A stretch of DNA of 64,000 bases from Homalodisca vitripennis (taxonomy: Eukaryota > Arthropoda > Insecta > Hemiptera > Cicadellidae): NCBI RefSeq assembly GCF_021130785.1, contig NC_060213.1, positions 119,479,001-119,543,000 on the forward strand. The letters run 5' to 3'. The notes beneath the pieces were generated by a model, which made no database searches, had not been told where the DNA came from, and saw only the letters and a program-made list of their open reading frames with translations. Position numbers and translations under genes: made by a program. Shown one piece after another: positions 4,801 through 57,486 of this stretch. How positions within the stretch are numbered: the stretch's first letter is position 1; every line of letters begins with the position of its first letter.

Positions 4801-6084
4801 TATTTATTAGCTTATTATTATTATATTTACTATTCATCAAATCCTGTCCAATTAATTTGTACATGAATCTTTTGTGAATGTTGAGTTTAGCGTCCGGATT
4901 CTCACGCTGTCACAGATAACTCCTGAAATCTCGAGTCATCTGAGATACATTAGTGATACTGTGTCGTTTTAATAAGATTAAAAAATGCTGTGACTAACTC
5001 GTTATATCTTTTCAACGACATCTAGACTACATGTGTTTGTAATCTGAGTGAAGAGGCATTCTCACTGTCTCTTCATGTGCACAACTGAGTACTCTAGGAC
5101 GTTTCTGACACAATCTTTAAGAACAGTGGAGCAACCGAGTTTACTACTGTGATTAGAGCTTAACTCAACATTTACATTGATGCATGAAGTATTAAATAGG
5201 AAATAAAATAATGTAAGGTCTAATAAAATGTAAATAAAGTCCAAAAAACGTATGTAAGAAAACAATATTTGATGACAACAAATCAAATCACATTTATTTA
5301 CACAAATTACTAAAAATATACATATTGTACATATTGTATAATAAAATAGAAAACAAATATACCATTTTGATATAAAATGGTAATACAATAATTTAAAATA
5401 GTTTATATTAAATAATTTATTACTAAATAATATACAAAACTTTATATCATAAAAGAAATAAATCCAAATATCGAAATAAATAGACATTATTTTTTTTATC
5501 TATTCAAACATCATTTATGATTAAAATTAATGTTATATCTAATTTCGGTGAAGTTATAAAAATAAACATGGGAAAAGTGTCTACATGGGCCTCGATGGCT
5601 TGTGCGTAGATTCGAGTTTAAAAAATTGTAGGATTAGGATTTTTATCTAGAGCAGTAAGGAAATGAATTTTAAAATAGAATACATTATGGATATTATCTC
5701 TAAATTCTGATAATTGGCAATATTGTTGATAAAATAAACAAACAAATTACAAATAATAAGTGAATAAAAATAGCAAAATTACTAGTGAAACGCTTTTTTT
5801 TAGTTTGGAGAGGAGGACGGACAATCCCATCAGTCAGTTGTCAGTTAGTATATATCCGTGGGTAGTGAACAGAGATAAGTGACTCAGCCTCCTCACTGCT
5901 AATAAGAATCAAGAAACCCTTGACTTTGTTCTTAAAAAAACTCAAGAGAGGGTGAACCAAACAGCTCTATATTTCGTAAGAAATTGGAATTCTCAACACA
6001 ATATTATAATTCACTTACGTTCGTAGGATCCTCATACGTCTGGCACATACGTAACGGCTAGTACACACCAAGCTTGGATTTTGG
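1874..6084. other. AT-rich non-coding DNA
   Basis: Apart from the diverged repeat pair listed separately, I see nothing in these 4 kb. The minus-strand frame 5062-5487 is a run of Phe, Tyr, Ile and Cys codons typical of AT-rich DNA and has no domain. I looked between 5200 and 6084 for a left LTR of Gypsy element 1, meaning a start like TGTAACGG and an end like CCGTCACA, and did not find one. Confidence 0.5.
2255..3009. repeat. Diverged direct repeat pair (2255-2372 and 2895-3009)
   Basis: The two segments share an order of blocks: ATTCAATTC, CCAA then TAATGTAACTGA, TTACTTATTAAAAT-like, and TTTGCTT then TTATTT then TGTATGCTA. They lie about 640 bases apart in the same orientation. Many substitutions separate them, so the duplication is old. 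No ORF is conserved between the copies. Confidence 0.45.
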
Positions 6085-8002
6085 TTATGCGATAATACCA
6101 GATCCTCCTGGCACACACTCTCGTTCTGGTTGGTTACTCTCTCTAACGGTCTGCTCATCTGGGACAATCGACTTCCCAAGGTCTCTGAGTTCCGCATCGG
6201 TCCGGGTAGCTTCGGGGTGCCGTCGGCTACCTCTCAGGCTGGCACGGAGCAGATTGGCAACTCGTACTCGATATCTCAAACAGATAAAACAACAATTAAT
6301 AACACAGTAATCGTAGATCCACTCAATATGACCTGCTTAACTATACCATGCTTAAAACGATTGACTCTGAGGTGCTGGAAAGTACTCTCTAAAGAATACT
6401 CCTTTACGCTTAGAGTGCCAAGTTGGTCATCCAATACTTGGAGGACCTTCAAAGTATCATTCACGTCCTGATTCAACAGTTCGGTTTCTTCTTTACTATA
6501 TATCCCATCTACTTCAGGAAAAGTTATCTTTCCAAAATCGCTCGAGTGCCAGGAGCTGCCGAAGAATCGGGCAGGCATCCTGCACCCGTCTGCAATTAGG
6601 TCACATCGATCCCGATTCGGAATTTCACCCATCCCTTTCAGAATGGTTGTAATAACGTTTAGACCAGCATCCGGTCTAAAGCAATTCAATACTACTTTGG
6701 CTTCACCCGAGGTAGTATAGATCCATCGGGTTGGAGTTTTAATTAGGACTGGGGATTTCAGGCCGGATATCAACTTTCTAGTGCACAACGTAATTTTCTC
6801 TTTCAGCAAAAGTTCAATTGGACAATTTGGTCGTTGGTGTACATTAAATAATACTTCCGACAGAGGACACACTGTTAAAGGGCCGAAACTACACTCACTT
6901 CGGTAATGGTCAGATGAATAAACGGTATAGGTTTGTCTGTCTTTGCTAACTATTAATTTTTGGTCGTCTACTTCCCACTTCACCCATCTTATTAGAGAAG
7001 GGTCAAAAACAGGATACGTTATTACGTTGAAAACTTCATACACTTGGTTATAATTTTTCAAGGGGAGCTTAATGAGCACTCTAAGCTGTGTTTCCGTAGC
7101 ATAGGATTTGATTATTGCAAATTTATAGAAGCTATGGAGGTTTTCTAACTTAACGTCTAAGAATAATTTTGCAGGTGGTGGTATAACCTGTTTTATAGAT
7201 CTCAGGACTTCTAGGAACTGATGAGGGGGTAATAGGTTGCTGGTCATCCTATTAGCAGCCAAGTCCTCTACAGCTTGGTGGAGTTGAGTCATTCTTTGTA
7301 CAGCAAGGTTAATGGCATCTTTAATTTCTGACAAGGCACAACTTAATTTTAAGTATTGGAAAAGAGTATTAAACAAACTTGAGAAAACGGATTCTGTTCT
7401 GGAGTTTGAGCCATGTTGTCATGCATTACTTGGTGATACGCTTTCAAGATGTAAATCATTTTATTTATTACCTTTGAATGGTTTAAAATTTCTGAGTGCA
7501 TGTTATCTAAGACAGTTAATTGATCTTTCGTGTCGTGATACATTTCGTCATTCGTTATATTGGCCTCATCTATCTTACTATTCATAACTTCCAAATCGCT
7601 ATCGATTACAGTTCCAAACAAGAATTTTAGTACATGACCACCGGCATCAAACAGACCGCGCTTCTTTTGGGTACGCGGCAGCAGAGTGACCAAATAACTC
7701 GTTTTGCCAACGTAGTCGGTCACCATCTGTTGTAGCCCATAATATTCGTATCTGAAACTGGTTTCAAGGTCATGCACTATGGTATGTAAGCTGTTGTTTT
7801 GCGAGAGAAGATTTTGGAAAAACTCATCATACTGACCTCTTACCTTTACCAAGATTATACTTAGATTTCTGTTTTCCTCTTCCACTCCTGTCAGGTTGTA
7901 CTGGAGCACCACAGTCCAGTAGCTGTCTGTAAGTAAAACGTCCCCTTCTTTCTCGAATATGACACCCTGGTGGAAGCAGAGAACGCCTTCCAGGATCAAC
8001 AA
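6085..8002 (-). pseudogene. env, baculovirus F-like envelope glycoprotein, frameshifted
   Basis: Two long overlapping frames, 8002-7349 and 7376-6276, make up the ectodomain, and a third frame, 6279-6085, carries a basic cytoplasmic-tail-like segment. The first frame contains a furin-type site (RTQKKR) directly followed by a glycine-rich fusion-peptide-like segment (GLFDAGGHVLKFLFG). This is the hallmark shared by baculovirus F proteins and insect errantivirus Env. A hydrophobic membrane anchor sits at the end of the second frame. Frame changes lie near 7350-7376 and near 6276-6290. The first frame opens on TTG at 8002 with hydrophobic codons upstream, and I see no in-frame ATG, so the true start (perhaps reached by splicing) is lost. 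The arrangement matches env of element 2. As it stands it cannot give one intact protein. Confidence 0.85.
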
Positions 8003-8093
8003 AACGCCTAAAAGGCCTACAACAGAACATCTATGATTTCATGTGGCACGATCAAATTTGATATCCACCTTTTCCCAGGCTATGTAGCGAGCA

Positions 8094-9560
8094 CTATTCC
8101 CCAACTATTCCAAAGCTCTTCAAAAGTCTAACAAAGTCACCCCATCTCGCGGGTTCTTTCTTACTCCGTTTTGGGCGTCCGATACTTGCAGGCCCGGCTA
8201 CTGCTACCGGGGCTTGGGTTTCATCGTCACCCTTTACACCTCCGTTTAAGTTCTGTAGACCACTATCATCTACCTCTTCGTCACTGGAACTATTCTCGTT
8301 TTGCTTTTCTTTCTGCGCGGTCGAAGGACGCGGACGTTCCTTATAAGGTTTGATACGGTTCACGTGCACGACGACCTCTCGCTTTCGTATTCGAAGAACA
8401 ACATTTAGAGGTGATACCACTCTAACTATGGGATATGGTTCTTTCCATAGTTTTTATAATTTCTTTACACGATGACGTCCTATACTGGGTACATGCAATA
8501 ATACAAACTGCCCTTCACGGAATTCGGTTGATTTAGCTTTCTTATTATACTGACTTTCATTACGGCCTCGGGCTCTGGCTTTAAGCACTGCAGTTTCCTT
8601 GTAAGCTTCCTGTAGTTTCTCCCGGAGGGCTTCGATATGATTGTCATATATATCTGTCTCATCCGTAATCTTCAGATCCGCTTCTATAGGAACCTCCATT
8701 TTCCGACCAAAGATTAACTCATACGGAGAATACCCAGTACTCTCATGAGATTGGGAGTTATAGGCCATGGTGACATAAGGAAAGTATTCATCCCAATTGG
8801 CCTGGTTCCGGTTAACAAAATGACTCAACATTCTCATCACAGTGGAATGGACCCGCTCCAGTCTGCCATTACTCTGAGGATGAAAACCAGTAGTTTGGAT
8901 TTTTCGAACGTGCAGAAATTTGCATAAGTCTTTAATTAAGCCGGATGTAAAGTTAGCTCCTTGATCGGTAACTAAGGCCTTTGGCACGCCAAACTTGGTT
9001 ATCACCCTCTGCACTAGTGCTCGAGCAGCATTTACGGTGGTCTGTTCTGGCAGTGGAACAAACTCACAGTATCTGGAGAAGTGATCCATAACACTGAGAA
9101 TATAAACGTTGCGGGATTCGCTAATGGGCAGAGGACCAACTATATCTGCCGCTATCACTTCGAAGGGCTCCTGGGGTTCGTTGAAGACGTCACCCAGGGG
9201 CGCTTTCGCTTTACTGTAATTCGTTCGTTGGCTACAGCTACGACATGTCCTGACGTAATTCATAACGTCTCTTTCCATAGCTCTCCACCAGAACTTCTGT
9301 TTCACCCGGTCTAGTGTTTTTGCCACTCCGGCGTGTCCGGCTGTGGGCAAATCATGATTGATCCTAATTATCTCCTGAACTAAGGAAGTTGGTACTACAA
9401 TTTTCTTTTCACCCGAGCTCAAACGGTACAGGACCTTCTCCGGGCTCATCCGGAAGTTCTTGGCTTGTCTCAAACCTTGAACTACGGGATCTTCGCGTTG
9501 ACGTGTTCTAAGTAACTCAAGGTCAACGACAGGGAACACTTCCTGTTTAACCGCTCGCAC
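8094..9560 (-). pseudogene. Integrase part of pol, interrupted by one stop
   Basis: A single frame runs from 9560 to 8094 with one in-frame TAA at 8454-8456. It shows the HHCC zinc-binding module (HDLPTAGH with a later CRSC), then the catalytic DDE triad: Asp in AADIVGPL, Asp in VTDQGANF, and Glu in NGRLERVH. A chromodomain-less C-terminal region follows with a GPY/F-like segment (LWKEPYPIV) just beyond the stop. The stretch after the stop aligns with the same part of element 2, so the TAA is a nonsense mutation and not the natural end. RNase H lies in a different frame upstream, separated by a shift near 9570-9595. The protein would insert the DNA copy into the host chromosome. Confidence 0.9.
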
Positions 9561-9568
9561 TGCGCGAC

Positions 9569-10857
9569 TTAGCCCATCCGCGTTAGTGTGTTTTTTCCGG
9601 CTTTATATTCTACCGTGAAATCAAACTCAGCTTGTCGCAGCGACCATCTCATCAGCCTACTGCTAGGGTCCTTAAGCGACATCATCCACTTTAGAGCGGA
9701 GTGATCGGTGATTACTTTGAAAGGACGCCCCAACAAGTAGCATCTGAAATATTTTGTACTCCAGACTAGACTAAGTAATTCGCGCTCGGTTGTCGAGTAG
9801 TTCTTCTCGGCTGGGAATAATGTTCTAGAACAGTACGCTACGGAGTGTTCCCGGCCATCTATCTCCTGTGAGAGGACTGCTCCTAAGGCAACAGTACTCG
9901 CGTCTGTCGCTAATATGAACGGCTTGGTAAAGTCAGGGTATATCAACACAGGGGCAGATATAAGTTTTGTCTTTAAGAGCTCAAAAGCCTCCTGACATTC
10001 TGGTGTCCACCCAAATTCGCTATCCTGTTTGGTCAACTCGAATAGTGGACGTCCAATGGTGGCAAAGCCGTCAATGAAGCGGCGATAATAGCCAGCCAAG
10101 CCTAGGAAAGAGCGCACGTCCTTCACCGTAGTGGGCACAGGGAAGTCCCTTACAGCCGATACCTTTCCAGGATCTGGTTCAACACCTTTCTTAGTGATTA
10201 CGTGACCAAGATAGCTGATTTCATTGACCACAAAATTACATTTACTAAGTTGTACTGTCAGATTCACATTTTGTAATTTCGAAAGCACTTCACGAAGGGC
10301 TTCTAGGTGTGAAGGCAAGTCCCTGGAAAACAAAATTATGTCATCCAAGTAGACAAGGCATTTCTCACCTTTCAAGCCCATTAAAACTGAGTCCATTAGC
10401 CTTTGGAAAGTTGCCGGAGCCGTGTTTAGTCCAAATGGCATACGCTGATACTCATAATGTCCACCGGGGACATTGAATGCTGTTTTGGTCGGCTATCTTC
10501 GTCAACTCGAATCTGGTGATACGCAGACTGGAGATCTAACGTCGTGAACATCTGGCACCCGCCAAGTAAATCCAGTGTTTCTGTGATGTTCGGGAGGGGG
10601 TACACGTCAGGGGTGGTCACCGCATTAAGTCCTCTGTAGTCGACACAAAACCTTAATTTAGGGGTACCGTCGGGAGATTTCTTAGGCACAAGTACTACAG
10701 GCGATGCCCACACGCTCTGACTAGGAACAATGATACCTTTGTTTAGTTGGTCTTTAACCAATTCGTTAAGTGTGGCCTTCTGATGGTATGGTACGCGATA
10801 AGCTTTTTTGTAAATAGGAGCTGCATTCCCGATTCGTATGACATGTGTCACTGCCTA
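9569..10857 (-). pseudogene. Reverse transcriptase and RNase H part of pol, frameshifted
   Basis: Frame 10851-10426 holds the RT N-terminal half (KGIIVPSQSVWASPVVLVPKK, LRFCVDYRGLN, FTTLDLQSAYHQI). Frame 10441-9569 continues with MPFGLNTAPATFQRLMD and the catalytic YLDD, then RNase H (Asp in LATDAS, Glu in TTERELL, Asp in ITDHSALKW). A shift near 10430-10500 removes the junction residues. An in-frame TAG at 10855-10857 lies just upstream of the first frame; the sequence beyond it aligns with element 2, so it is a nonsense mutation. A second shift near 9570-9595 breaks the link to integrase. RT and RNase H would copy genomic RNA to DNA. Confidence 0.9.
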
Positions 10858-11057
10858 AGTACAACCCAAAGGTTGGTCTTCACTGTGAGTAAGAACATTT
10901 TTGAATTCCATGAGAGTGGACTTCACAAGGTTCTGCTCGTGACTTGGCAGATGCCTAAGCTTCTCGTCCAAGCACGCCTCTAAGTCGGATTCGTCAGAAC
11001 GACTCACCATGCCTACTCTTGCCTGTGGCCTTTTGTAGCTATGAAGTGCTATGTCGC
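10858..11057 (-). pseudogene. RT-proximal linker of pol, element 1
   Basis: Read in a third frame, this segment has an acidic and basic linker with ESDLEAC and KLRHLP followed by a hydrophobic LMEFKNVL motif and GCT just before the TAG at 10855. It corresponds in order and spacing to the element 2 linker containing IEHLRPEEKAKIRNVL and NLGCT. It marks the point where the two elements become colinear again downstream of the SGNH-like insertion. Confidence 0.7.
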
Positions 11058-11580
11058 GCTCAACAGTGATATACCAATTTCACTTTTCCCTGTTGGTTCA
11101 GATGCAACCCGTGCTTTGTGTACATGTTATGGCTTAATTTTCATTTAAGGTCTAGAAATTCAATCCTACCCTGTTGAATTTTATTTCTATTTTTAGCTAA
11201 ATTTTGAATGATGGATTTAAGAACTCCGTTAGCATCTCCAAGTTCGGATTTGAGGTCTTGATCATAGCGGTCAAATATCGACAGAACAGTTACTCTCGCT
11301 TTCCACTTCACCGGAAAATTTTCAAATGCTTGTTTCAGGGTTAACGGATAAGGCGCACACTAAGGTCAACATCGTTTGTTCCCTCTATCAAGATCACCGT
11401 GTCGTTCTCGGTCAATGTATCAATAGTACTACCAAATTTCGAGGTTACTTGTTTTAGTATTCCGTTGGGCACGAAAAAGACTTCTACATCAAAATTTCTA
11501 GGTAGTCTTTCGGATAGTATTTCCTGGAGTCCACGACTATGACTGTCTGCTAAAACTAGTAGTTTTTGTCGCACAGGATT
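11058..11580 (-). pseudogene. SGNH-hydrolase-like domain fused inside Gypsy pol
   Basis: Frame 11760-11341 runs without a break from the post-protease linker (LGTLDRDF) into LLVLADSHSRGL, a block I motif with the nucleophile Ser in ADS. It continues to a block II-like PNGILKQV and then block III, ILIEGTNDVD. A 1-nt shift at about 11341 moves the rest into the next frame, where WKARVTVLSIFDRYD and then a block V-like KHGLHLNQQGK (general-base His) appear near 11096-11120. An in-frame TGA lies between them. Spacing between blocks fits the SGNH/GDSL-like domains common in insect genomes. This family includes esterases and acyl hydrolases; a function here is unknown. Element 2 has only a short linker of about 20 residues at the same place. 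This copy is degraded, so it is evidence of an ancestral fusion rather than an active enzyme. Confidence 0.75.
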
Positions 11581-12102
11581 TCCTCCCTCCACTGGGTCGA
11601 AATCTCTGTCGAGCGTTCCTAACTTCAAGTTCTTGGGTAGAGTTAACTCCTCAGCACTTGCGTTTACGGTCTTGACCCAACAGCGGTTTCCTTTTACCTT
11701 TGTCAGGGTTTGAGCAAGATAAACACCGTGCATGATAAAGTCAGGGGGTTCAATCACCACGTCCTTTCCCTCTAAGTCGTCGGAACCGGTTCACATCGGT
11801 TAGTCTTCACTTGGATAATCTTTTCACACCGGGGCGGAATTTTCACATCGCTACAGCAGTACACATAGCGTTGCTGTTTTGGAGGTGCACAGCTAGCTGA
11901 GGGACGGTCAGGATCCGGCACGGCCTCCCCTTTCTTTATCCGATTTAACCAAATGTCTCCACCATACAACCGAAGTAGACCATGTTCAATTCTCCGTTTC
12001 CTTTGCCCAAAATATCGCAACCAAGTACGGCTAGGTATCCCTTAGGGAGGTTCCCAACCACAAAATTTCCTACCACTTCAACGCCCGGTTTCATTTGTAA
12101 AG
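11581..12102 (-). pseudogene. Post-protease linker of pol, element 1
   Basis: Frames 12020-11772 and the first part of 11760-11341 align with the element 2 segment after the protease. Shared landmarks are a hydrophobic protease-end motif, IPPRCEKIIQVK versus IPARSEMLVQLK, and HGVYLAQTLTKVKGNRCW versus HGIYVARSLTTVRNGTCW, followed by a Leu-rich closing motif. These conserved blocks are typical of the region between protease and RT in insect Gypsy pol. A frame change lies near 11760-11775. Confidence 0.75.
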
Positions 12103-12363
12103 TCAATTCTTGTCGCCCGTACTTTTCAATGTCCTACCAGAAATACCTTTCAAAATTACGTCTGGTTTGGTGAGCTCAGCGGATGAGGCTCCTCTTTTTA
12201 CGAGGGAAACCTGCGCTCCAGTGTCAATTAGGACCTTGCCCTCTGCATCTTCTATCTTACCGATGGCTACAAGTTCATCTACCACATCTCGAATCTCGGG
12301 GACAGTCCTGACCTGCTTCTCAGTAGTGCAGTTTTTACGAGTCGTACACATCTTTAGGTTCAC
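12103..12363 (-). pseudogene. Retropepsin-like aspartic protease of element 1
   Basis: The active-site motif is visible as VLIDTGAQVSLV, in the frame -1 relative to gag as expected for gag-pol frameshifting. A conserved downstream KGISGRTLKS stretch aligns with the protease of element 2 before the frame closes at 12103. The flap and C-terminal half continue in another frame, so a shift has broken the gene. The enzyme would mature Gag and Pol. Confidence 0.8.
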
Positions 12364-12392
12364 CTTAGTAGGTAGCTGCGAAACAGCTTCCT

Positions 12393-13859
12393 TTAATTCC
12401 GGGGCTTCGTGTCGGTGGATCCACTTACCCCGCTCCCGTTTCCAGAATGAGGTCTTTTAGAGTCTAGTCGAACTCTACAATCTTTCTGTATGTGGCCTGC
12501 CTTGTTGCAACGCCAGCACGTTATTCGATTAGAGCGGTCCTCTCTTTTATTCCTGCAGTCCCGAGAGATGTGGCCTTTCATATGGCAATTACAACATGTA
12601 ATATCTGAGGTATTGGCTGCCTGGAACACCTTGCGTTCAGGCGTGGGACGGGCATTGCCCAGAGTCGGCCCGCGAGGAGGAGGAGGATATGCTAAGTCTG
12701 GTTCGAGTACACCCACGTTAGATGTTACCGCACGCGTGATGACGGACCTCAAGCGTCCCGCTTCTGCCTTCCTACCCATCACTCTCAATTGTTCAAGAAG
12801 TAACATCAAAAGAGCAAGCCGGTCTTGCAGCTGGGGATGTAAGTTATGCAATATTTGCCTAAGCTTTACTTCTTCTACTACGGGTGTTGACAAGCGACTG
12901 TACAACCCCTCCATCGCAGCGATAAATAAGTCAATGGGTTCCGTTTCGGCTTGAACTCGATTGAATATCTCTTGCTGTAGGTATATGTCATGGTCAGGAT
13001 GTTGGAAGACCATTTCCATATCCCTACACAGCTGTTCCCAGTTCCTGAGACGGCCTATCGTGGATCGATACCACGTTAGGGCAGGTCCCGTGAAAAAATC
13101 CACTGCCTAATCAAACAGTTCAGTTGTGGTGACCCCTCGAGCCCTGCGCAGTTCTTCTGCTCTCTGCAGAAACACCCCTACGCTCTGTGATTGGCCGTCA
13201 AATTGTAATCCCCATTTATACACAGGCACTTCTCTATGTGCGGATGACGATAAATTAGAATTTTGTTGCGGTGTGATCGCGATGGTTGAATCTATTTGTC
13301 GAGCAAGTGCACCGACGGTGATGTGGCTTGTTGGCTCTGGAGGCGAGTGCACATCCGCATTTTTGGGCCGCGGGGTCTGCTCGGCTGTTGAATTTTCAGC
13401 TTCGGCGCTTGCCGTGCCTTTCTTGGCTTCGGCCTCGTCACACAGTTCTTTGGTCTTATCCATTAACACCTTATGACGTTTTGCGATAATTTTGTCACCT
13501 AATGCGCCTATTGGTATACGTCCCGCCCTTAAATAGTTATGGCACATCCTGGCTTGAAGACGCTGACCTTCAGTGTCTGTATAGTCCCCCTCATAATCAT
13601 TCGCGGAGGCAGCCAATGACTTATATTTATCTTCACAGGCCTCCAGTTCCTCATCTACATTTAAGGAAGATAAGACAGCCTGATCAATAGGCGTACCTGC
13701 CTTAACACACTTTGTCAGCCGTCTTCTTAAGTCTTCAGCCGTACCGGAAGTAGGCTGTCCGCGGATTTTCAATTCGTATTGATTCTCTTCCTTTTTCAAG
13801 AGATACGCGTTCATAGTGTATGCCAATACTAAATTCCAAAGGGGAAATGAAAATTCCAT
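12393..13859 (-). pseudogene. gag of element 1, one internal amber stop
   Basis: One reading frame of about 488 codons runs from the ATG at 13859 to 12393, broken once by TAG at 13107-13109. The N-terminal part is charged and rich in Lys, Glu and Ala. The part after the stop has a capsid-like segment (TWYRSTIGRLRNWEQLC, YLQQEIFNRVQ) typical of the retrotransposon Gag family. Two CCHC zinc knuckles follow (CCNCHMKGHISRDC and CWRCNKAGHIQKDC) and would bind genomic RNA. The stop falls between matrix-like and capsid-like parts, not at a gag-pol border, so it looks like a disabling mutation; readthrough cannot be excluded. Confidence 0.85.
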
Positions 13860-15043
13860 ACACTAACTCAACTCTTCAAATAATTTTAAAAATTGTCACG
13901 TTCAATTAATCAATTTTTTTTTTTAATTACTCGTCATTAAATCATACCCTCACGCAATATCTCTTCAAATGTCTAACTAATCATCACAGTTATACGCCTA
14001 AGTCCCCGAAGGGTTTAATATTTTAAATTTAAAATTCGATAAATTTATTTTCCGATTTTTGAATAAACTTTTAAGTCAATAACAAGTTTTAATATTGAAT
14101 TAGTCACTAAGCTACTCCTCACACCGCCATAGGCACCCTACAATAATCAGTAAAGTTCAAAAATTTCGACTAAGTCCTTAGATCAAAATATCGAATTAAA
14201 TTCCGAAATTATCATAGAATAGCTAGTTATCACTTATTGAATCGGTAACCGTTCAATTCTAATTTTCTTTGTGATTCTACTACTTATGTTGTAAGTTCAT
14301 ACTATCGCAATCAGTAATAAATAATAAACAATCAATAATTAATTAATTTCTATAGTATGTCAAATGCGCTGGCGTCTTTTGACCTGACATGGAAAATTAG
14401 CCACAATGCGACTCTATATTTTTCAGAGTCGATATCTCAAGTTATTATTATTCTATTTATTTTAATTTGACATTAAATTCAATCAATAAATTATAATTAA
14501 TTATCAGCCATTTTCAATGACGCCCAGACGGCTTCCAACGCACTTTAACACACTAAGTATGGTTATTCTAATATTAGTTTATACTAATACTAGGTTAGTT
14601 TAAAAGCTTCTATTGTATGTTAAACAAGTTAGGGTTATAGTTAAAATAAGAATAAGTAGCAGTTAACGTGGACTGTGAGGCTTCACTGCCTTTATGATAG
14701 TCTGAGCTGATGCCTAAATCAATGCATCACTGTCAAATTTAAATACGTTTTCCAAATATGCTTTAATTTAAATTGATAATATATTACCAGATTATGTTGA
14801 AATTTCAACTAATTGATTAATATCTGTGCCCTTCCTCTAAAAATATACAAAATAAATTTTGAATAGAAAAACTATTAATTAATCTGCTAGCTGATTATTA
14901 TTGCTAGCTTAGGTTAAGCGTAATAGATTATTTTTACTTACTGGAATCGCTGATGATCCGTAGTCCCATCTCCACAGGGTTTCTCAGCTCCGTAGGACTC
15001 GCAGAAACGTGGAAACAATTTAATCACGGACTTTTGAACCGCA
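13860..15043 (-). other. 5' leader of element 1
   Basis: About 1.2 kb of AT-rich untranslated leader lies between the primer-binding site and the gag ATG. It has no ORF of note. Element 2 has a leader of similar length (1.27 kb) in the same position. Confidence 0.6.
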
Positions 15044-15061
15044 CCTTCACACCTGGCACCA
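15044..15061 (-). promoter_or_regulatory. Primer-binding site, element 1
   Basis: Two bases inside the 5' LTR, the minus strand reads TGGTGCCAGGTGTGAAGG. The leading TGG matches a tRNA CCA end. I could not assign the tRNA with confidence; it is loosely like a leucine tRNA 3' end. Its position next to TGTAACGG on the other side defines the LTR border. Confidence 0.6.
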
Positions 15062-15063
15062 CT

Positions 15064-15791
15064 TGTAACGGACGAGACGGGACTTGGGAATTAGATAATC
15101 AGAAAACTAGTTGGCCGCAAAAATCTGATTTTAATTTAATCTTTCACATTAATAATTATTACAATACTATTCACATTCCCTCAACTGTAATTTTAAAATA
15201 TATTAATCACTCATCAGCGAAACAGTAGGTTAAAATTTAAGATTTTAGAGGGAAGGGCAAACACGGAGCGACGCGTTAGGTTCGAGTACCGGCGATCAAC
15301 TCACTCCACGCACATACTTTTTCGCTACAAATTTTTGTTAAAATGGCGGACTAGACTCCGTACGGTGCTGCTCCCAAACGATTTACTTGGGCGTAACAGA
15401 GTCTAGAAACAACACAACTTGGCCAGACACAGGCTGGAGTCAGCAGAATCAGCAAATTCCTCAGCCAGCTGCAGCTAAAGCTGCCACGGGTATCGGGCTA
15501 CTTCCGCTTAACAACTCAGTTGAGATCAACTAGAATATTCCGAGCAACTATTACTTGGACTTATATCATACTAATTAAATATATAATAATCACTGTTCCT
15601 TATTTCCTTTTAATAATTTAGGTGACGGTAGATATTTTGTAAGTAATAGTACTTACATTTTACTGTTAGGAACAATGAAGAATCGTTGGTTGGTAATACT
15701 ACAATATAAATACTGTAGTACTTCACTGGTCAATAATAATATTGACCTCACAGTGTCAAATGGTCAGGGGCTTTCTTAATGGGCCGTCACA
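15064..15791 (-). repeat. 5' LTR of element 1 (728 bp)
   Basis: The plus strand starts TGTAACGG and ends CCGTCACA, a nearly perfect short inverted repeat. It abuts the primer site at 15061. The terminal TGTAACG is shared with the LTR of element 2 although the internal sequence differs. The outer border rests on the terminal motif only, because no second copy was found. Confidence 0.6.
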
Positions 15792-17356
15792 AAATGTCTT
15801 TACTGTTTCCATTTAGTTAAAATTACCAATATTGTTTTGTAGACAACACATACATTTACTACATATTACATCATACATTCTGAAACAATACACTCAAGAA
15901 AGCATTCGAAAGCAAAGGAATTCTATATTTCATTTTTAAATGTAACGTACACAGTTTTTGACCAGTTTACCCATGATTCATCGTTATTTTAGCTTACTAC
16001 TTTCATTAAGTGAATTCTTTATATTTGTTTATAACTGGAAGGTAAAAGTTAAATGAAACCTTTGTTTTAAATTAACTTTTCATATTGAATAATCCATTAA
16101 ATGTTATTATACATCGTCATTGAATAAGCTTTAAATCAGTGTTACAATCTCTCATGATTTATAATATAATAGAGATTATAATAGAGGTCAGAATTGTGAT
16201 TTTTCGACTAACATCTTGGAAATATTAATTGTGTTAAGATTAATCTTTTAAAAATTATAATCTGGTAAACTCATTTTAAACGCTCCTCTCCTTGAATTAC
16301 TCCAAACAAAAATGTTTCAAATATAAATTGAATAAAATACCAATGAGAAAAAGAACAAACCAGTAGCAAGATATTATATTTGCACCATCTATTCTTTCAA
16401 CAGGCCAAAAACCACTTAATTGTAAGATGAAAGAGTTTTACTTGCAAGGAATTAGGTACGTTATATCTTAGGCAACAAAGGTAACATATCATATTTCTAC
16501 GTAGACTAGTGAAATTTCTGATTGTGCATAGCTAAACCACCCATTACATTTAAATGTAATGATATTCTTCTGTGCATTTAGTAAAATCAGACTATTTACT
16601 AAGGATAACGTAAAGATATGTAATTGAAAATTAAAGTAATTCCCTTTTACCAACCTATACACTGTGGATGCTGTAATATCCGCTTTAAGTATTAAACCAA
16701 AATCTAGAAATCAGACGTTCGAGTGTACTCATTTTTAAACACGAAGCTGGAAGATGACAATCATAAAGTTTACTAAAACAATCTTTGGACATAAATAAAC
16801 CAGTGATTCATTAACAGAAGAAATCATATAACCTCCTCATGTTTTGACGTAGCTTAAAAAAGCGTAAAACTTCTAATTATAAAAATAAATTAAAACCCAA
16901 ATAATTGTAAATACTATCGAAGCAGCTTTTATTTTATTTCAATTAATGCACAACAAATAAAAGACCTTTTGTTTTCCCGGCCCACAAAATCAAGGTAAAT
17001 GTCTGTCGTATTCCATAAGGGACCTGATCTTTTGACTCTCTCGGGAACTCAATTACTTACCTCTGAAAGCCTGTAGACTCTTTGTGTACTCCAGCTTCAG
17101 GCAATCTACATACCTCAGCGTAAGCGGTCTACCAGTTAACTGCCTACACATCTGCTTCCTTCTAAAGATTCAAGCGTTTGGGACACTGGTAAGTCTCTCG
17201 ACCTCTGAAAGCTTTTGGGGTCAAGCAGCTTATAGATTTAAACGAACTTAAGAAACCATAGACCTTCTAATTACAGGTCACCCACCTGTTCTTGGAAAGT
17301 AATTATCTCTTGTGATAAAAAAGTGCCGGCATCTGAATCCAAAGCATTTAAATTAT
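15792..17356. other. AT-rich non-coding DNA
   Basis: No ORF, repeat family or RNA gene recognised. The last 350 bases are somewhat less AT-rich and contain a reused phrase (CCTCTGAAAGC) at about 17061 and 17201, without clear coding signal. Confidence 0.45.
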
Positions 17357-17495
17357 TGGAAAAGACATATTTTGTATACTTCCACATAAAATTTATTAAA
17401 ATAGCGCTTTCGCCGGTTAAGGCATCATCAGTTAACCGGCGAAAGCGCTATTTTAATAAATTTTATGTGGAAGTATACAAAATATGTCTTTTCCA
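17357..17495. repeat. Perfect 64-bp inverted repeat with an 11-nt loop
   Basis: Bases 17357-17420 and 17432-17495 are exact reverse complements over 64 positions, separated by GGCATCATCAG. Pairing stops cleanly at both ends. On the minus strand the loop reads CTGATGA then TGCC, followed in the arm by GGC then GAAA then GCGC then TA. That is the conserved-core order of a minimal hammerhead ribozyme of the kind found in Penelope-like elements. The perfect arms suggest a recent event or selection. The hammerhead reading is inference. Confidence 0.85.
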
Positions 17496-18008
17496 TTAAC
17501 ACCAACTTACTTCCACCAAGGATACAAAGCAGAAAACATTTAAATTATATCCAACGTATTCTGTTATGTGTCATTTAGCTTTGATTATATTAATTACACA
17601 ATAAATACATTCAATATGACAAAGTGTCCTGAATTCCAGGGAATTATCCAGTTTGTTTGTATGTCGAAATCAAAGGCTGCGCAAAGTAAATTTGATTGTA
17701 ATCTTTCAAATACTGACTACCTGTGTCCACACTCTATAGAGGGCAGTCCGAACGATCATTCGTTAATCTAGAGATAATCATATTGTTATCTCCGTGGCAC
17801 CATGAGGTAATTCTATGGAGTAAACCAAATATTGTGTTTTGTTTAGTAAGTCAATCAGACACTGGCTTAAGGTTTTATCCCAAATATTCATATTTCTCAT
17901 GCGAAAAAACATCTTTTGCTTCCTAAATGTAATATATTTTCTCTATACTCACACCTAATGGAATATATACATCCCCTTCACGGGTATATTTTCTCCCTCC
18001 TAGCAATA
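17496..18008. other. Non-coding; two small unsupported ORFs
   Basis: Frames at 17568-17771 and 17723-17926 (+) overlap in different phases and show no domain. Nothing else is seen here. Confidence 0.4.
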
Positions 18009-22829: not shown

Positions 22830-22942
22830 TGTATTAAATACATGATGTTATAATAAAGATATAACACAAAAAGAACTCCACTAAATTGTGAAATGTAAAA
22901 CAAATAAATTATCTTATTCTTTCATCAACTTGTGAGATCTGA

Positions 22943-22966
22943 TCTATATAGATATATATATATATC
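22943..22966. repeat. Short TA microsatellite
   Basis: A run of GATATATATATATAT lies just ahead of receptor exon A, where a polypyrimidine tract would be expected. The tract upstream of the exon is therefore weak. Confidence 0.7.
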
Positions 22967-22978
22967 GGACCTTGTCAG

Positions 22979-23227
22979 GGAAGTTCGCAGCGGAAATACC
23001 AGATGATCTGATACTCGGAGGACTAATGATGGTTCACGAACGAGAAGCCTCAGTCACCAGCGGTCCCATCATGCCTCAGGGTGGTATCCAGGTCTTGAAG
23101 ACCATGCTGTACACCTTGGACGTTGCCAACAACATGCCTGATGCTGCCTTCACCCTGGGGGCTCACATACTGGATGACTGTGACAAGGATACTTACAGGC
23201 TCGAAATGGCAGTAGACTTCATCAAGG
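22979..23227 (+). CDS. Class C GPCR (mGluR family) ligand-binding-domain exon, copy A
   Basis: The translation shows the start of the receptor family ligand-binding region: DLILGGLMMVHERE, GPIMPQGGIQ, MLYTLDVANNMP, FTLGAHILDDCDKDTY and AVDFIKG. This order (LGGL..VH, GIQ...ML..LD..N, TLGA.ILD.C..DTY) is characteristic of metabotropic glutamate receptors, which bind an amino-acid ligand outside the cell. The exon is bounded by a CAG acceptor at 22978 and a G|GTGAGT donor after 23227, giving 249 nt and phase 1 at both ends. The conserved Cys before GPI, which pairs with the Cys of ILDDC in the family, is Ser here, and Gly in DTYGLE is Arg. Exon A may therefore be a decaying copy or an alternative exon. 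Confidence 0.6.
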
Positions 23228-26200
23228 GTGAGTCAGAATATTCTTACATTACATTAAATATTCATTAATCCTAGGAATTTAAGTAAGAAGTTTCGTTTTC
23301 ATATCAAATTTTGCAGTTTGCACGTTTTGTAGGCATTTGTGCTGAGTTATTTAAGGAATTACTCTATGTATATCACATTAAAATGTAAAACAATTTATCT
23401 GGTAAATTTTAAGGCGTAAGATGGGGTTGTTATATGCGGATTTTGAGTTTATCTCTATTCATCCTTCCGCTAAATATACCGCCTGAAATTTCAGAAGACA
23501 GTTAGTGTCAGATATCAGGTGCATTCCTCACAGCATACCTTGTGCACTTGAAATGGAGCTAAACTTAACATTCTTACGGAAGTCATAATACATGAAGGGA
23601 ATAGGATCCTCCGTAAAAAGTTTTTATTAAGCGTAATTTATTTAACTACAGTGTAAACATTCATCTCTCAAAACTGCTATATTAAAACCAGCTTTAAACA
23701 TAATTCTATATTATTAAAACCTTATTTTTTCGTAACTGAACCAAATTTGAACACGACATTAAAAGAATGTTGGACACAGACACCTTCGGGAACTATTATA
23801 CAGTATGTTTAGTATGCTATTTATTGGCGTATTTTGTTTTTCTATGAATTATAACAGTCAAATTGATTGTGAAGTAGGTCCGACTGATGTGAGAAGTATC
23901 ACTTCCTACAAAGGCGACTCTATCAAGCATAACTATCAACATACTCTACCATGCCTACTAAGTGCTCCTTACTCTTTACCTATTTATTTAAAACTTAAAT
24001 AATAATACATTTCAATAAATATAATATAAGAAAATTACATGATTTTCGTGTTGTTTATAAAATATTATATGTAAACAAGTCAATCCCTGATGCTATAACC
24101 CATGTACATACTGTAAGATAAGATTACAAACACAACAAGTATTGCGATTGCAAACACAAACAATAATACTGTTATTATGATTATAAACCCAATTACTACA
24201 AGTGTTATGATTTCAGTACACGCTTAATGTTTAGTATTGCGATAAAACCATCGCTATGAAGGCTTCTTAATTTTGGCTAAGTTGATTACTCACTTCTGGT
24301 ACAAGAGCGGTTTTCCGTTCGAATAAATTGGTATATCTCAGCCACGATGCAAAATTCCACAAGTACTATAATTAATTGTTGATTTTGAATATAATTCTTT
24401 TAAATATTAATATTGACGTAAGTTTTAAAACTAATTCATTTCGAACTTTTTTGTTTTCAATGACTAAAACCAGCAATGAAGTTGTACGTGCTTAACCCTT
24501 CTGTTGAACCCTTCAGGTATTTTATTTGTTAATACCACGGTTAAAACAAATTAGTTTCGGGTTGTTTTAGGGATCGTGTTAATCATACTTAACTCGCAGC
24601 AATAAGTGGTCAAAATTTCGTGGTCGCCAAGGTTTGTGGTAACAGTCCTTATTTTTTTAATGTTGGGTTCAGCTTTACTTTATTGCTGGTCCTAAACTCA
24701 AAAATCAGATTGAAACAACCCTTCCTATCACGGCTTCATATCTACATATTTTTATGTGTAGAATTAATTTTATGCTCGCGTTGACGGAAAGGAATTGGCA
24801 GTAGGACCTAGGTTTTCAAAAGGCTACATATATTCAAAAAGTCAGTCAGTGGTATTTTTTCCAAACAACATGTCAGTGTCTTACATTCTGATGCTATTTC
24901 ATTAAATACTTCGTAAATTTGGGGCAAGTGGGACATAGCCTTGAGGGCTTTCCAAAAAAATAATACACCTGTATTTATACCAGGGACTCCAAGAATGTGT
25001 AATTTCAACTTTCAGTACAACCAGTTCAGAACTTTACAAGTGAAGGCGTAGCTAACAAATAAAGGTACTTCCTCATTTATAATATTATTAAGATCAGGAT
25101 TAGTATTAGGATGTATACACGACGCATGAAGTTTCACACTGTAGGGCTAAAGTTTGATATAATTATACGGCATATATCTGTAGGTGTGCAGTAAGGTGGA
25201 ACGTTATGAATGTCGACTGAACGGCTCTTACATACCGGAGGCTAAATATTTTAGGAATTTGTGTTGACAATATTTTGATGCACAAACAATACGCAGAGGA
25301 TAATCTCTTACGATAATCGGTGGTTGGTCATCTTACGTAAGCGTGCAATGAATAAATTGTGTACAAAAATAAAAATTAAAACTAATCTACAATTTTTTAA
25401 TACTATTGTTGTGTAAAGGTCTTTACCTAGACACGGGAAATATTAGCTATTCTGAACGTACTTCACTGCAGGCCGCTCGCGCTCAAGTGAAGAGGGAGAA
25501 GATGGATGGAGACCACAACGTAAGCGATTGATGGATTCACTAATCTGCTGAGGTCAGCACTATCGATTATTGGACGTCATTGCCATCAGATTGACTTTTT
25601 ACATCCGTCCAACTGAAACTTTATGTTGAAGCCAATTCGCTTTGGAGATACCGGGTTGTTTATGTTTTTGTACTCAACATTAAAAAATCAAAAAGTTTCA
25701 CTACAAACGAACAATCACTTTTTCACTAAAATAATTTTAAACCATCAACACAATAGTCACAAACGATTTTCATCGAAATAAACTATAACAAGAGTTATAT
25801 CGAAGTATCTGACAGAACGCATCGAAAGAGGCACAAACAGAGAACCCACGGACAGTCTGCTTTTTTACTTTTTGACCCTAAACTCAATAGAGCCATTTCC
25901 TTGGACCGAGAGGAGTGAAAGTTTTCAACTTCATAGGACCTTCTTACAAATTTTTAAATACTGTATTTACGATAGAGAACATATTCTATAAAAGAGTGCA
26001 TTAAAGCCAGCTCGTAAACGAGAAGAAGCTCGTGTGCAGTTGAGAATGCAGACGAAGGTTTTTATAACAGGTGTCGGTAGTGTTTTTAGTACAACATTCT
26101 TAAAATTGTTTACAAAAATTAGGCTTTTGCGAGGTCCAACAGAGAACACAGATACTCATCGATAAACGTAAAATTCCTGTCATTCTGGGACTATTCCCGA

Positions 26201-27260
26201 ACACTGACACTTTAACGTGCATTCCTTACCTTGTTCCTGTAATAATCAAAGCATTTAACACACCGCATTTACTCTTTTTAATTTTAGAACTGAGTCTAAT
26301 CAAGAGTTTATCTGTGTGGAATATATTATGTTACACGTGTTCGGTCCTACTAGTGTGAAGAAAGAAGTCAATGAATGTAGTAATTTGAGCCTCATATGTG
26401 AAATTGGTAACACAAGTCCTGACCATCGATAAAAACATTTTAAGGGATTATGGCAAGAAATTAAACATAGCGTACATGTGTTACAGCATTTCGTTACATG
26501 AGCCATTAGTGATATTATGAATCGTATTTCTGAGCACAAATAAATATATATGATATACAAATTTTATGTTTTAACGAGTAAATAATAAAAGTACTTAAAT
26601 TTTAACGAAATTCAGAGTATTTCGTTACAGAAAGCAAAGTTGGAAGGTCGGTACAATAAAACTGTGTTAGCGCCGCATAAAAACATCGTAAAGTATGAAC
26701 CTGTGTGTCTGGTGACAACACATTCTTCTCTCAACCCCCAAACCCACTTCCTAAAACGTATTCATTCAGTTAACCTATTAATTAGCTTGACACCAACTTG
26801 AGAAATTATACTCGTACATAAAAATATCAAAAGCCGAAAATGTCAACACATGAAATATCGTTTTTTTCAACTACATTAAAAACTTAATAAACAATAATAT
26901 GGTAAATCGTTTTGTGGTTCTAAATTATTGATAAACGTAATATATAGTTTTCTGGACAGGTAAAAAGCAAAGTTTTTAAGCAGCTCAGCACTGACTGGCC
27001 GATGTGAATAAAATGATGTTTACGTGTTTGTATGGCAGACAGTAATGACTACACCCCAACTAACCTCCAGTATTTATATTGTGACTGTTTTAAAGTTATA
27101 AAGTACTCAATACACTGAGTACTTGTAAAACACAAGTTACTTGTAAAATATTTCACGTACCAATTACATACTTAGGTGGTATATAAAAGTTTGATTGTTG
27201 TTTTCATCGTATTTCAGTTACAAACATTAAATCAAATGGAAATACAATTAAATTATAATA

Positions 27261-28339: not shown

Positions 28340-29082
28340 ATGTCTCAAAAAACAAAAGTTTACTCTAGTGTTGAATCATGTAATGCCGACTTTAATCCAC
28401 CACAATATTATTATTTGTACTTCATCAGAACATTAGAAGTGTAAGAAAGAACTTTGATTTGTTTGCGGCGGTCGCCAATGGGTTTACTGTCCAGCCTGAT
28501 ATCATTATATTGACTGAAGCATGGCTATCCACTGAGAATGACGCCTCAGTGTTTTCACTTGATGGATGTAATATGATAGCTGTTGGCAGTACAAACAGAT
28601 GTAGCGGAATAATAGTTTATTATAAATCTAACATAAGATTTCAGCGCCGAGAAGTCAGTTTGCGAGGAGCTGATTCGTTGTTGGCGTGTTTTACCCTTAG
28701 TTTTACCCTGTAATAATTATACGTTTTTTTTATTTTAACAATCTATAGGTGGCATGAAATTTCAATATGTGATTTTTTAGAACATTTTAAGATATGTTTG
28801 GATGCAATAAGCGGAAGTAAACTTTTTTGTCTTGGAGATATGAACATTAATACTAAGCTTGATAACAATCATATTGATAACTATACAGAGATTACAAGTA
28901 GTTTCGGGTTTGAGCAGTTAATTGACGTCGATACTAGGGTTACTGATACTACCACTAGCTGTATAGATCACGTCCTGTTTAGAACTCAGCGCCCTACCGT
29001 GGCTATTCCAGCTGTCATAAACTCGTTAATTACGGATCATCGCACTATCTGCCTGTCCGTATGTGTAGACAAGGCTGAATAA
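28340..29082 (+). pseudogene. LINE ORF2 N-terminus: apurinic-type endonuclease domain
   Basis: A likely ATG at 28340 leads into a short frame. A 1-nt shift near 28420 opens HQNIRSVRKNFDLF, the usual start of the endonuclease, then DIIILTEAWLS with the catalytic Glu. A break near 28710-28800 is followed by LGDMNINT (catalytic Asp region), TSCIDHVLF and LITDHRTICLSV with the terminal catalytic DH pair. The domain nicks target DNA to prime reverse transcription. It lacks part of its middle and cannot be active. Confidence 0.8.
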
Positions 29083-30147: not shown

Positions 30148-30612
30148 TGTAACGCGACCGATTTGGGGATTAATTGGTATCCGCTGCCACCACCGGATGA
30201 TTCCGGAAATAGAAATAAAGTTTGTGCAACAACGTTTGAATTTTAAAAACACTGTTTATTAATGGTTAATCTATAAAAATTACACAATTTAGATTGGTTA
30301 AAAAGGGGAGAGCACTTCTGAATGATATAAAGTATTGAATTACATTATTGAAAGAATTTAGAAAAGTTTTAAAATAGGGCGACAGACAGTTACATGTCTA
30401 CGAGTCTGAGGCCTGAACTAGACTAGCTTCCCAGCACACGCAGGTGCTGACTCTGCATTGTCAGCAGTCTTACTGCTGACCTCCTCAACAGTGCTGTACA
30501 CTTTACAATTATTATGTCTTTAGTTAAATTTTAACAATGAACGAAATTTTTATAAAACCAAATAAAGCATAATTTCTTGAATTATTGTTAATATTGGGTT
30601 CGGGTCGTTACA
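30148..30612 (-). repeat. 3' LTR of element 2
   Basis: Starts TGTAACGCGACC and ends GGGTCGTTACA on the plus strand. It is the same length as the right LTR and differs from it only around positions 30217, 30254-30262 and 30397. Confidence 0.95.
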
Positions 30613-30628
30613 TCACCCTCTCCTCTGG
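30613..30628 (-). promoter_or_regulatory. Polypurine tract of element 2
   Basis: Immediately inside the 3' LTR the minus strand reads CCAGAGGAGAGGGTGA. This is the expected purine-rich primer for plus-strand DNA synthesis. Confidence 0.85.
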
Positions 30629-30907
30629 AAAAGATGTGTCATAGGATTAAAGTGATGGCACATCTTGAATCTATTACATTCGTATGTTAATGACTTATTT
30701 GTAATTTTAAAAATGTTTTTATTTTCTTTGAAGTGATCCCCACATTATTAATACATATTACTAATCTAAGTTTACATAATCATGATACTATTAAGATTTA
30801 GAATTATTACTAATATACAATATTTCTTTTCAGAGTCACAAGCCGGTCAGAGTCTTTTGATTTGTCACTTTAAAGATTTTAAAAATTTTCACGTTTTTTT
30901 TCACTAC
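30629..30907. other. Untranslated region between env and polypurine tract
   Basis: AT-rich, without a supported frame. The plus-strand frame 30782-30964 lies antisense to the env end and is not supported. Confidence 0.5.
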
Positions 30908-32829
30908 TTAATCATGAGGGGGGGTCATCCGAACAAAGGAGGCTTCGTGGATGATCTCTGCTAATGGAGTTCCTTCCTCCACCCTCACCGTCAGTTGGCT
31001 CTGGTCTGGGCCGCTTGTGCTCTGAGTTTGTCTTTGCTGCCGACTGGTCGTGCAAAGGCGTCTTATTCTCCTATGACATATAAAAACTACGAGCAGTACA
31101 CAATTTAAACTTACAACTACATACATGACAATAAAATTATAATTCTTATTTACATCAATGACGACAGGTCGGTTTATATTAGATCCTTGCAATAATGAAT
31201 TTAGTCCTATTTCTATATGATCATCAATTAGATTCTTTTTTATATCTTTTAGCGTTTCAAAAGTTAATTTATTGTTTAATAATATAAGAGCGGTTTCATT
31301 CGGCTGCAATATGTTTATTTTCGCTATATGAAGGTGCGTAACATTTCTTTTATAAACTATATTGCCTCTAATCCTCGAAAATATCTTACCACTTTTTCCA
31401 AAAATATCACACCTTGATATCTGTTTTATGATACCTGAGGTGTTAACAACAACTTCTAAATAATCTTTTACAATGTCTGTTTTAATTACAGATGTATCAT
31501 CTTCAATATTTCTAAAACAATTTAATATTACTTTGTAGGGTTCTGCAACACTATAAATCCAATCATTACAATTTTGTAACCAAAACGGTGAATTTACATT
31601 CTCAGTTAGAACTCTGTTACACTTTTTAGTTACAGAACTTAATCCCATAAACAGTGAATAGATGCAACCATCGACTGTATGGTGTAGTACACTTATTGAA
31701 TTTGGACAAATTTTAACATAACTGTGCCTACATTGAACATATTCATCTGAGGTGAGAGGTACATAGTACTGCCTATCTTTAAATATCAGCAAGTAATCGT
31801 GTTCAATTTTCCAAACTAACCAATGTCTTAACCTAGGTTGATAAAGTGGTATCACTTCTATTTTATAGGTTTCAAATTGTCTATCAATTGAGCTTAATGG
31901 TACTGTAACAATCAATCTTATGCTAGCTGGATTAGCTAATGCTTGTGCTGTACAAAGATCATAATACAAAAATATATCTTCTCATTTACAGGAACAATTA
32001 GTTTCAAATGAGATGGTATACTCTTCTCAATTTTATTCAAAACTTTTGTAAAATCATGTGGATTTAGTAATTTACTGCTTATCTTACCAGAGTATATAAG
32101 TTCTAATGCTTGCCTAAACTCTACTACTCTTAGCTTAGCTTCATCAACAGTTTGACCTAAATGTCTTAACATTGTTGTAATCGCCATATGTTTTGCTAAG
32201 GACTGATGCATCATTATATTCTGTTCATTGAAGTTTGTTAATGATGTTATTAACCTGTCGTTGGCTGTAGATAACTTAATCATTATCTCATGAATAGCTT
32301 TAGTGTTACTTACAATTCAAGAATTAATATCTTTCATCAAAGTTATTTGTGTATGACTCGAACTAACAACTGTACCACTTACTAACTTTAGTTCGTCTAC
32401 CTTGGTATTTACATGTTCTAAATCTTCACTAGTCGGTACACCAAATAACCACTTTAATGCATAACCTCCTGCATTTATGAGTCCACGCTTATTTCTGGAA
32501 TTTCCAGCAGGTGGCAAAAGTTTTAACAAGTCGGTTATATCACTCTCATACTGTTAGATTCCTTCCTTCACTCTTATATATTCAAACTCGAAGTCTTCAT
32601 CCCAGACGTTTACACTGATATTTTTAAACTTTTCTAATTCTGCACATCTTTCTTTTAATGGTACCAGTTCATCAAGGATTTCTACTAGATCAAAGTCTAA
32701 AACGATTCTCCATTCATCTCCGGATATCACAGAGTCTTCTAGCTTCCTAAACACAACTCCTTGGCTCATTTCAGCTGCTTTGACCATCGTAATAATCATT
32801 AGTACTGTAACAAAGGTTATACTTGACAT
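30908..32829 (-). pseudogene. env of element 2, baculovirus F-like glycoprotein with two stops and one shift
   Basis: The frame from the ATG at 32829 starts with a hydrophobic signal-peptide-like segment and continues through in-frame stops at 32554-32556 (TAA) and 32317-32319 (TGA). A shift at about 31936-31969 moves the rest to frame 31969-30908. A furin-type site (RNKR) is followed by the conserved fusion-peptide-like GLINAGGYALKWLFG. Near the C-terminus lies a membrane anchor, then a basic cytoplasmic tail ending at 30908. The protein family mediates membrane fusion in baculoviruses and infectious insect errantiviruses. This copy cannot make a full product as assembled. Confidence 0.88.
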
Positions 32830-33273
32830 CTATAATCTAACCTTTAATTTATGTTATGCATATTCAATGTTGTTTAACTAACTTCTCCTTATTATAATAT
32901 AACACAATTAATCTTCTTAAAGTAACTCGATTTGTCCTTTCACTTCTTACAACTTTTTTTCTTCTGGCCTTCTGTATTAGTACTCTCAGTAATCTCATGT
33001 GCTTGTGTGGATATACTCAGACAATTTTTAATCTTCAGGGTAGGCCTACCTTTTTTTTTTGTTTTCTCTCACACAACATTCAAACTCATTCAGCAACATT
33101 CGTTTCACATTTTCTCTTCTGTCAAACTGATCATTTTCACTTCATTCGCTACTGAGTTGTAATCCTACAAGATGAAATTTCGAGAATACACAACAACTTC
33201 GGCTTTTTCTTACTTCTCTCATGATATAACACTTTACTTCTACATTATTATAGTACAACTTGTATGCTTCTAT
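32830..33273. other. Spacer between pol and env of element 2
   Basis: The plus-strand frames here (32932-33162 and 33172-33363) are antisense to the element and not supported. A splice acceptor for subgenomic env RNA would be expected in this spacer, but I could not single one out. Confidence 0.45.
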
Positions 33274-39484: not shown

Positions 39485-39502
39485 CCCACCGCACTGCCAC
39501 CA
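39485..39502 (-). promoter_or_regulatory. Primer-binding site of element 2, tRNA-Leu-like
   Basis: The minus strand reads TGGTGGCAGTGCGGTGGG. Its complement closely resembles the 3' end of animal leucine tRNAs of the ...CCCACCGCTGCCA type plus CCA, with one or two extra bases. It lies four bases inside the LTR. Confidence 0.7.
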
Positions 39503-39506
39503 AATC

Positions 39507-39971: not shown

Positions 39972-39975
39972 TAAG
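39972..39975. other. Target-site duplication TAAG, right copy
   Basis: Pairs with 30144-30147. Removing the element and one copy brings the LINE motif FLDISKAFDTV into one frame across the insertion point. Confidence 0.85.

Positions 39976-57481: not shown

Positions 57482-57486
<5 letters not shown>

Follow-up and report, generated by a model that had tools for sequence, protein, structure and literature searches.

Few accessory enzymes are found in the Pol polyproteins of retroelements; one of them, dUTPase, is also built into pol in retroviruses. SGNH esterases are carried by long interspersed nuclear elements (LINEs) and by rotifer elements, where they have been ascribed to membrane targeting or penetration, and we know of no life-cycle test of these roles. 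We analyzed a stretch of 64,000 nucleotides from the insect Homalodisca vitripennis (assembly GCF_021130785.1, contig NC_060213.1, positions 119,479,001 to 119,543,000), hereafter the window. On its minus strand, it contains an envelope-bearing Ty3/gypsy element that belongs to a family in which an SGNH-hydrolase domain is almost certainly built into Pol, between protease (PR) and reverse transcriptase (RT).

The Vesta1 elements of bdelloid rotifers are likewise long terminal repeat (LTR) elements with an SGNH/GDSL esterase, but this esterase is a separate ORF3 and most members of the clades concerned are devoid of a bona fide env (PMC5408684), whereas the domain of the window family is found inside Pol and env is present. 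The location in the pol frame does not match that of the bdelloid GDSL ORF3, which lies downstream of pol. For ORF3, an aid to membrane penetration or an auxiliary role was suggested, activity not being demonstrated (PMC5408684). The dUTPase found between PR and RT in the pol of rotifer LTR families is likewise a Pol-borne accessory enzyme, but enzyme and fold differ (PMC5408684). The ORF1 esterases of CR1, L2 and RTEX LINEs, such as ZfL2-1, present the same SGNH fold with Ser and His and an oxyanion Gly and Asn; however, the ZfL2-1 triad (S143, D279, H282) belongs to a non-LTR ORF1, whereas the window family lacks the Asp and carries the domain in Pol of LTR elements (PMC3905857). The ZfL2-1 esterase shows weak activity and binds negatively charged phospholipids, and a membrane-targeting role was argued (PMC3905857). 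Among the matches listed in the open-access literature (5.39 million papers, with subscription papers and most preprints outside its scope), none describes a gypsy pol with an internal SGNH or GDSL domain. The words esterase, SGNH and GDSL do not occur in a paper dealing with the accessory domains of retrotransposon polyproteins (PMC6338049), nor do esterase and hydrolase in work from 2025 on the endogenous retroviruses of insects (PMC12992720). As far as the literature searched shows, SGNH domains borne by retroelements are known, and what is new is the Pol location, the envelope-bearing element type and the missing Asp.

The original prediction described a continuous frame leading from the post-protease linker of gypsy pol into LLVLADSHSRGL and on to ILIEGTNDVD, followed by KHGLHLNQQGK in the next frame, and read these as SGNH blocks I, III and V in order. 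We recovered both parts at their places: the minus-strand frame 11341-11790 runs from the gypsy-type linker through LLVLADSHSRGL to ILIEGTNDVD, and KHGLHLNQQGK lies downstream in a different frame (GLHLN at 11110-11096). A domain profile of 170 positions, built from seven relatives described below, matched the window in three ordered pieces that agree with the order of the blocks: 11344-11790 (profile 1-70; E = 8.7e-29), 11144-11359 (profile 72-137; E = 5.7e-23) and 11063-11140 (profile 140-162; E = 3e-8). The domain of about 170 residues is therefore split over three frames (~11072-11571, minus strand). Block I, with the catalytic Ser, reads ADSHSRG (11530-11550), against ADSHGRG or ADSHGRA in relatives. 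Block II, which the original prediction had not listed, reads PNG and holds the oxyanion Gly (11461-11469). Block III, GTND, holds the oxyanion Asn (11371-11382) and is preceded by Glu, versus Gly in the seven relatives, and block V, GLHLN, holds the catalytic His (11096-11110), with His instead of the usual Asp three residues before it. Its reading is interrupted twice, by a frame break near 11341-11359 and by a TGA stop at 11141-11143 that ends the second piece. The window copy is dead across this region, and all four SGNH motifs are still readable in it. A chance motif match was also considered and rejected: nothing else of note matched the profile in the six frames of the window (next best E 1.9), the best shuffled protein gave E 0.45, and seven of 120 relatives gave E < 1e-78.

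These relatives come from a search of the protein collection with the RT/RNase H frame, of which the best 120 of 5914 proteins were taken. The domain is present in seven of them (RT identity 73-86%; predicted proteins of 1043-1520 amino acids; source lgn, one also jgi). In contrast, the other envelope-bearing Ty3/gypsy relatives differ: none of the remaining 113 matched the profile better than E 0.06, some being fragments that perhaps do not reach the site. We reconstructed an RT tree of 121 rows, consisting of the 120 relatives minus P0096 (short match) plus both window elements. A branch supported at 100/100 separates the eight carriers from all other rows, so one change suffices; a long-branch warning touches rows other than the carriers. 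This agrees with the proposed gain in a single lineage, and no intact relative without the domain was seen in the clade, where the seven listed relatives with RT identity of at least 73% are all carriers. When the domain of P0002 was used as query, five proteins including itself were found among 701 candidates, all of the same clade; this search was limited to long proteins and blind to relatives without common 5-residue words, and it missed P0008 and P0010. The SGNH and RT trees (11 rows) were weakly supported and not identical, and their pairwise identities correlated (Spearman 0.92; 55 non-independent pairs). The window frame found no match in the protein collection among candidates of about 82-260 amino acids, and nothing was found in viral contigs searched with the window frame, the RT frame and the domain alignment. 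A scan of prokaryote contigs yielded one bacterial stretch with 27% identity.

The place of the domain within Pol can be seen by comparison with a second gypsy element of the window (element 2, 30148 to ~39972), in which the linker halves are adjacent; in the window element, they flank the domain. The N-terminal half (11575-11781, minus strand) is common to both elements (blastp of linker frame residues 4-97 against element 2 residues 167-262; E = 8e-13). The C-terminal half (10858-11019, minus strand) resumes before RT, as had been predicted: residues 21-74 of frame 10858-11079 align to residues 238-290 of element 2, immediately following the part of element 2 to which 11344-11790 aligns. Using linker profiles, we measured the gap between the halves in the 52 of 120 listed proteins that matched both profiles. 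The gap comprises 195-200 residues in 7/7 carriers versus 4-75 (median 19) in 45 non-carriers, which puts the gain at about 180 residues, close to the 170 estimated originally. Element 2 (30148-39972) also encodes env. Its LTRs measure ~465 bp and agree at 98% of the 300 bp that were compared; it has a probable 4-bp duplication (TAAG), pol in a few long frames and no SGNH domain.

We searched the H. vitripennis genome (2.30 Gb) for further copies and scored the best 150 of 1646 candidates. Sixteen of these 150 matches lie in open frames of at least 1350 amino acids, reaching 1455 in family A and 1470 in family B (respectively, ~95% and ~65% identity to the window frame). Fixation of the domain in intact copies had been proposed as a check; the domain was found complete in one frame at 25 of 28 loci (L002-L029, where L002 is the window), all detected with a query holding half the domain. 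It is still present in the more distant family C (L023-L025; ~57% identity for linker plus domain, 81-87% for RT pieces and 37-49% for env pieces). Twenty 7-kb copies were fetched, selected for long frames and for differing subfamilies: protease, domain, RT and integrase (IN) share one frame in 13 of them, three with a shorter protease match, and all 20 present matches to the window env frames downstream of pol, some of them broken. The order PR-RT-RNase H (RH)-IN was confirmed in copies and relatives, with the domain in one open frame together with all four. LTR pairs were found in five of six copies inspected. The three pairs of family A have TG/CA ends and are 99.86, 99.86 and 99.59% identical, with 4-bp duplications in all three copies (TATA, ACTT and TACC). 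Family B gave two pairs (99.6 and 99.0%) and no established duplication, the family B1 alignment beginning at the edge of the fetched stretch, and no LTRs were found in the fetched flanks of the family C copy. The element is classified from its LTRs, Pol order and F-like env as envelope-bearing Ty3/gypsy; errantiviruses and insect endogenous retroviruses of this kind present the same TG...CA LTRs, 4-bp duplication, gag, PR-RT-RH-IN pol and F-like env. Gag and pol were compared in four copies; in three of these, their open frames share 61-73 nt and pol is shifted to -1. Production of Pol by frameshift and its packaging are therefore probable. The broken state of the window copy would fit a chance or decaying insertion in that copy only. 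However, the domain occupies the same place in open-frame copies, in three subfamilies and in the seven relatives, and such an insertion was rejected as vanishingly improbable.

Several lines of evidence point to the SGNH identity of the domain. Its predicted fold is flavodoxin-like SGNH along the entire domain, and its fold neighbors include TesA, PAF-acetylhydrolase and GDSL lipases (~12-21% identity among the matches listed) as well as sialate O-acetylesterase and carbohydrate esterases. The Ser, Gly, Asn and His of blocks I, II, III and V are invariant in 25/25 loci and 7/7 relatives. Weaker results came from sequence searches: a PDB search with the window frame returned only weak mitofusin matches, NCBIfam gave no useful match to the domain, and PHROGs gave weak matches only, phage lipase families among them. 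With regard to Pfam, PF13472 matches seven and PF00657 six of the seven members at E up to 1. The original prediction had proposed both modeling and a profile search as checks; the former agrees over the full length, and the latter does not reject SGNH, the member shown remaining below the curated cut-offs. From sequence and predicted fold, we consider the domain quite likely to be a true hydrolase.

We further analyzed selection on the domain using the ratio of nonsynonymous to synonymous substitution rates (dN/dS). Between family B subgroups (L020, L028 and L029 versus L022, L026 and L027), nine non-independent pairs gave dN/dS of 0.17-0.26 at dS of 0.33-0.42. Within these subgroups, dS is below 0.1 and four pairs gave 0.15-0.39. 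Comparisons among families A, B and C reached saturation at synonymous sites, with pN of 0.20-0.30. Since dN/dS is well below 1 between subgroups, purifying selection acts on the domain, though less strongly than on the core enzymes.

Our results make it fairly probable that a lineage of envelope-bearing Ty3/gypsy elements gained an SGNH domain in the Pol linker and kept it as a putative acyl or acetyl hydrolase. Of this, the analysis establishes the architecture, the single clade, the predicted fold, the invariant Ser, Gly, Asn and His, the dN/dS well below 1 and the open-frame copies with young LTRs. The domain would have been gained in the PR-RT linker, most simply once, and retained by purifying selection. 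It would be made within Gag-Pol via -1 frameshift and packaged in the core at the low dose of Pol; the viral protease may then release it, or it may remain attached to RT as an N-terminal arm. Its activity may be that of an acyl or acetyl hydrolase similar in kind to TesA and PAF-acetylhydrolase and working with a Ser-His dyad. The substrate would be a lipid or an acylated molecule reached from the cytosolic or core side of membranes, most likely a membrane phospholipid or an acylated protein. The enzyme could serve when cores assemble, uncoat or move along membranes, similar to what was proposed for LINE ORF1 esterases. These results suggest that the life cycle of the elements involves a captured enzyme that cleaves lipids or acyl groups. 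The chances of a lipid or acyl substrate appear about even, whereas an action specifically at assembly, uncoating or membrane passage of the core is a doubtful suggestion. The original prediction had suggested that the enzyme may act on lipids or glycans as the particle enters or leaves the cell. Surface glycans are the target of viral haemagglutinin-esterases; they seem less likely here because the domain, as a part of Pol, should sit inside the particle. Taken as a whole, the image is a tentative one: an infectious-type gypsy lineage would have captured an SGNH enzyme a single time and retained it while diversifying, and would carry it in its particles as a product of Pol that modifies lipids or acyl groups.

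Several observations weigh against this interpretation. The triad Asp is replaced in 25/25 loci (His in 24, Tyr in one) and in 7/7 relatives (His in five, Asn in one, Phe in one), a difference from the TesA, PAF-acetylhydrolase and GDSL lipases with which the fold is common over the whole domain. The best Pfam E of 5e-5 corresponds to 24.3 bits, below the curated cut-off of 32.9. Because the query held half the domain, the figure of 25 of 28 loci is no measure of domain-less members of the clade. One of the four copies measured, L022, has pol in another frame relative to gag. RT and integrase evolve more slowly than the domain, with dN/dS of 0.053 for RT-RNase H in one pair and 0.06-0.07 for integrase in two pairs against ~0.2 for the domain, and the nine pairs behind the last value overlap in their members. 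Finally, the near-identical pairs L020-L028, L020-L029 and L028-L029 gave dN/dS of 0.6, 2.2 and 1.1 on few changes, and one within-subgroup integrase pair gave 2.1; high ratios in near-identical pairs are as expected from decay after insertion.

The absence of the triad Asp in all these sequences and the faster evolution relative to the enzymatic Pol domains would also fit a module that, comparable to the OSK domain in Oskar, keeps the SGNH fold with no catalytic role and binds RNA, lipid or protein, and both Oskar and insect PAF-AH homologues are SGNH proteins with lost activity (PMC3905857). Yet the catalytic and oxyanion Ser, Gly, Asn and His are invariant in 32 sequences, whereas the seven database domains agree at just 39 of their 170 positions, and we regard a binding module as unlikely. 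A counter-defence or signaling enzyme that deacetylates or deacylates a protein, glycan or messenger of the host, without acting on membranes, appears less likely still: SGNH enzymes accept many substrates and the fold neighbors include sialate O-acetylesterase and carbohydrate esterases, but a location within Pol should keep the domain from surface glycans. The origin of the domain is a separate matter, compatible with any of these functions. Instead of a host gene, the source could have been another retroelement, through template switching from a LINE ORF1 or rotifer-type ORF3 esterase. Several classes of retroelements contain SGNH esterases (PMC5408684, PMC3905857), and such ORFs were argued to be shared between retroelements (PMC5408684). 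However, our domain search matched only Pol proteins of the same clade (within the scope given above), ZfL2-1 keeps the triad Asp that the window family lacks (PMC3905857), and the esterase ORF1 was found only in vertebrate groups in a survey of the Jockey superfamily (PMC4120745). Within the limited scope of these searches, a retroelement source seems somewhat less likely than not.

If the proposed hydrolase is real, it would represent a virion-borne esterase of a kind undescribed for retroviruses, as far as the literature searched shows. The predicted fold is the same as in the LINE and rotifer esterases, but here it occurs in a multi-copy, env-bearing element with young LTRs, at a site where the viral protease could free the domain. 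The reason for the repeated uptake of esterases by retroelements thereby becomes more directly testable, and the modular evolution of LTR elements gains a new component.

The window element as preserved spans 5992-15791 (minus strand) and, over 7 kb, shares 97.4% identity with copy L010. Likeness to the L010 flank ends at 5992, and the 3' end with the 3' LTR was not found. Comparison of its own flanks revealed no LTRs, and the 5' LTR (TGTGAC...GTTACA; 15064-15791) was located only via those of other copies (98% identity to the LTRs of three family A copies). All parts lie on the minus strand, and gag, protease, pol and env are each scattered over multiple frames. The gag region (Retrotrans_gag and zinc knuckle; 12393-13862) comprises two frames, with PF03732 and PF00098 in frame 12393-13106. 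The protease region, also in two frames (11945-12456), carries the motif VLIDTGAQ and can be aligned both with element 2 and with the PR segments of other copies, with matches to Pfam protease profiles only at E 0.12. RT and RNase H occupy two frames (9569-10854): frame 9569-10492 matches PF00078, PF17919 and PF17917, and 10426-10854 aligns to the pol of element 2. The integrase with its C-terminal tail follows at 8094-9602 (PF17921 and PF00665 for frame 8454-9602; 8097-8453 aligns to element 2). The baculovirus F-like env (6276-8038), in two frames, matches PF12259 at E 9.6e-15 and 1.8e-5, the second just below the cut-off. The original prediction that the element bears an envelope is thus supported, env adjoining pol here as in the other copies.

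Other features were observed in the window. An open frame of 976 amino acids at 60556-63486 matches recombination endonuclease VII and may be a protein-primed type B DNA polymerase of the Polinton or adintovirus kind. Regions 22938-27200 and 43321-52400, 20-25 kb apart, have many collinear repeats in common (~73-92% identity) and represent either an old duplication or two copies of one element. Weak endonuclease and reverse-transcriptase matches at 28717-29082 and 39932-40180 (E ~0.002, below curated cut-offs) are probably LINE remnants. Finally, about six repeats spaced by 253-263 bp and followed by inverted copies were found at 57477-59292, and an inverted repeat with 68-nt arms, 99% complementary and 11 nt apart, at 17353-17499.
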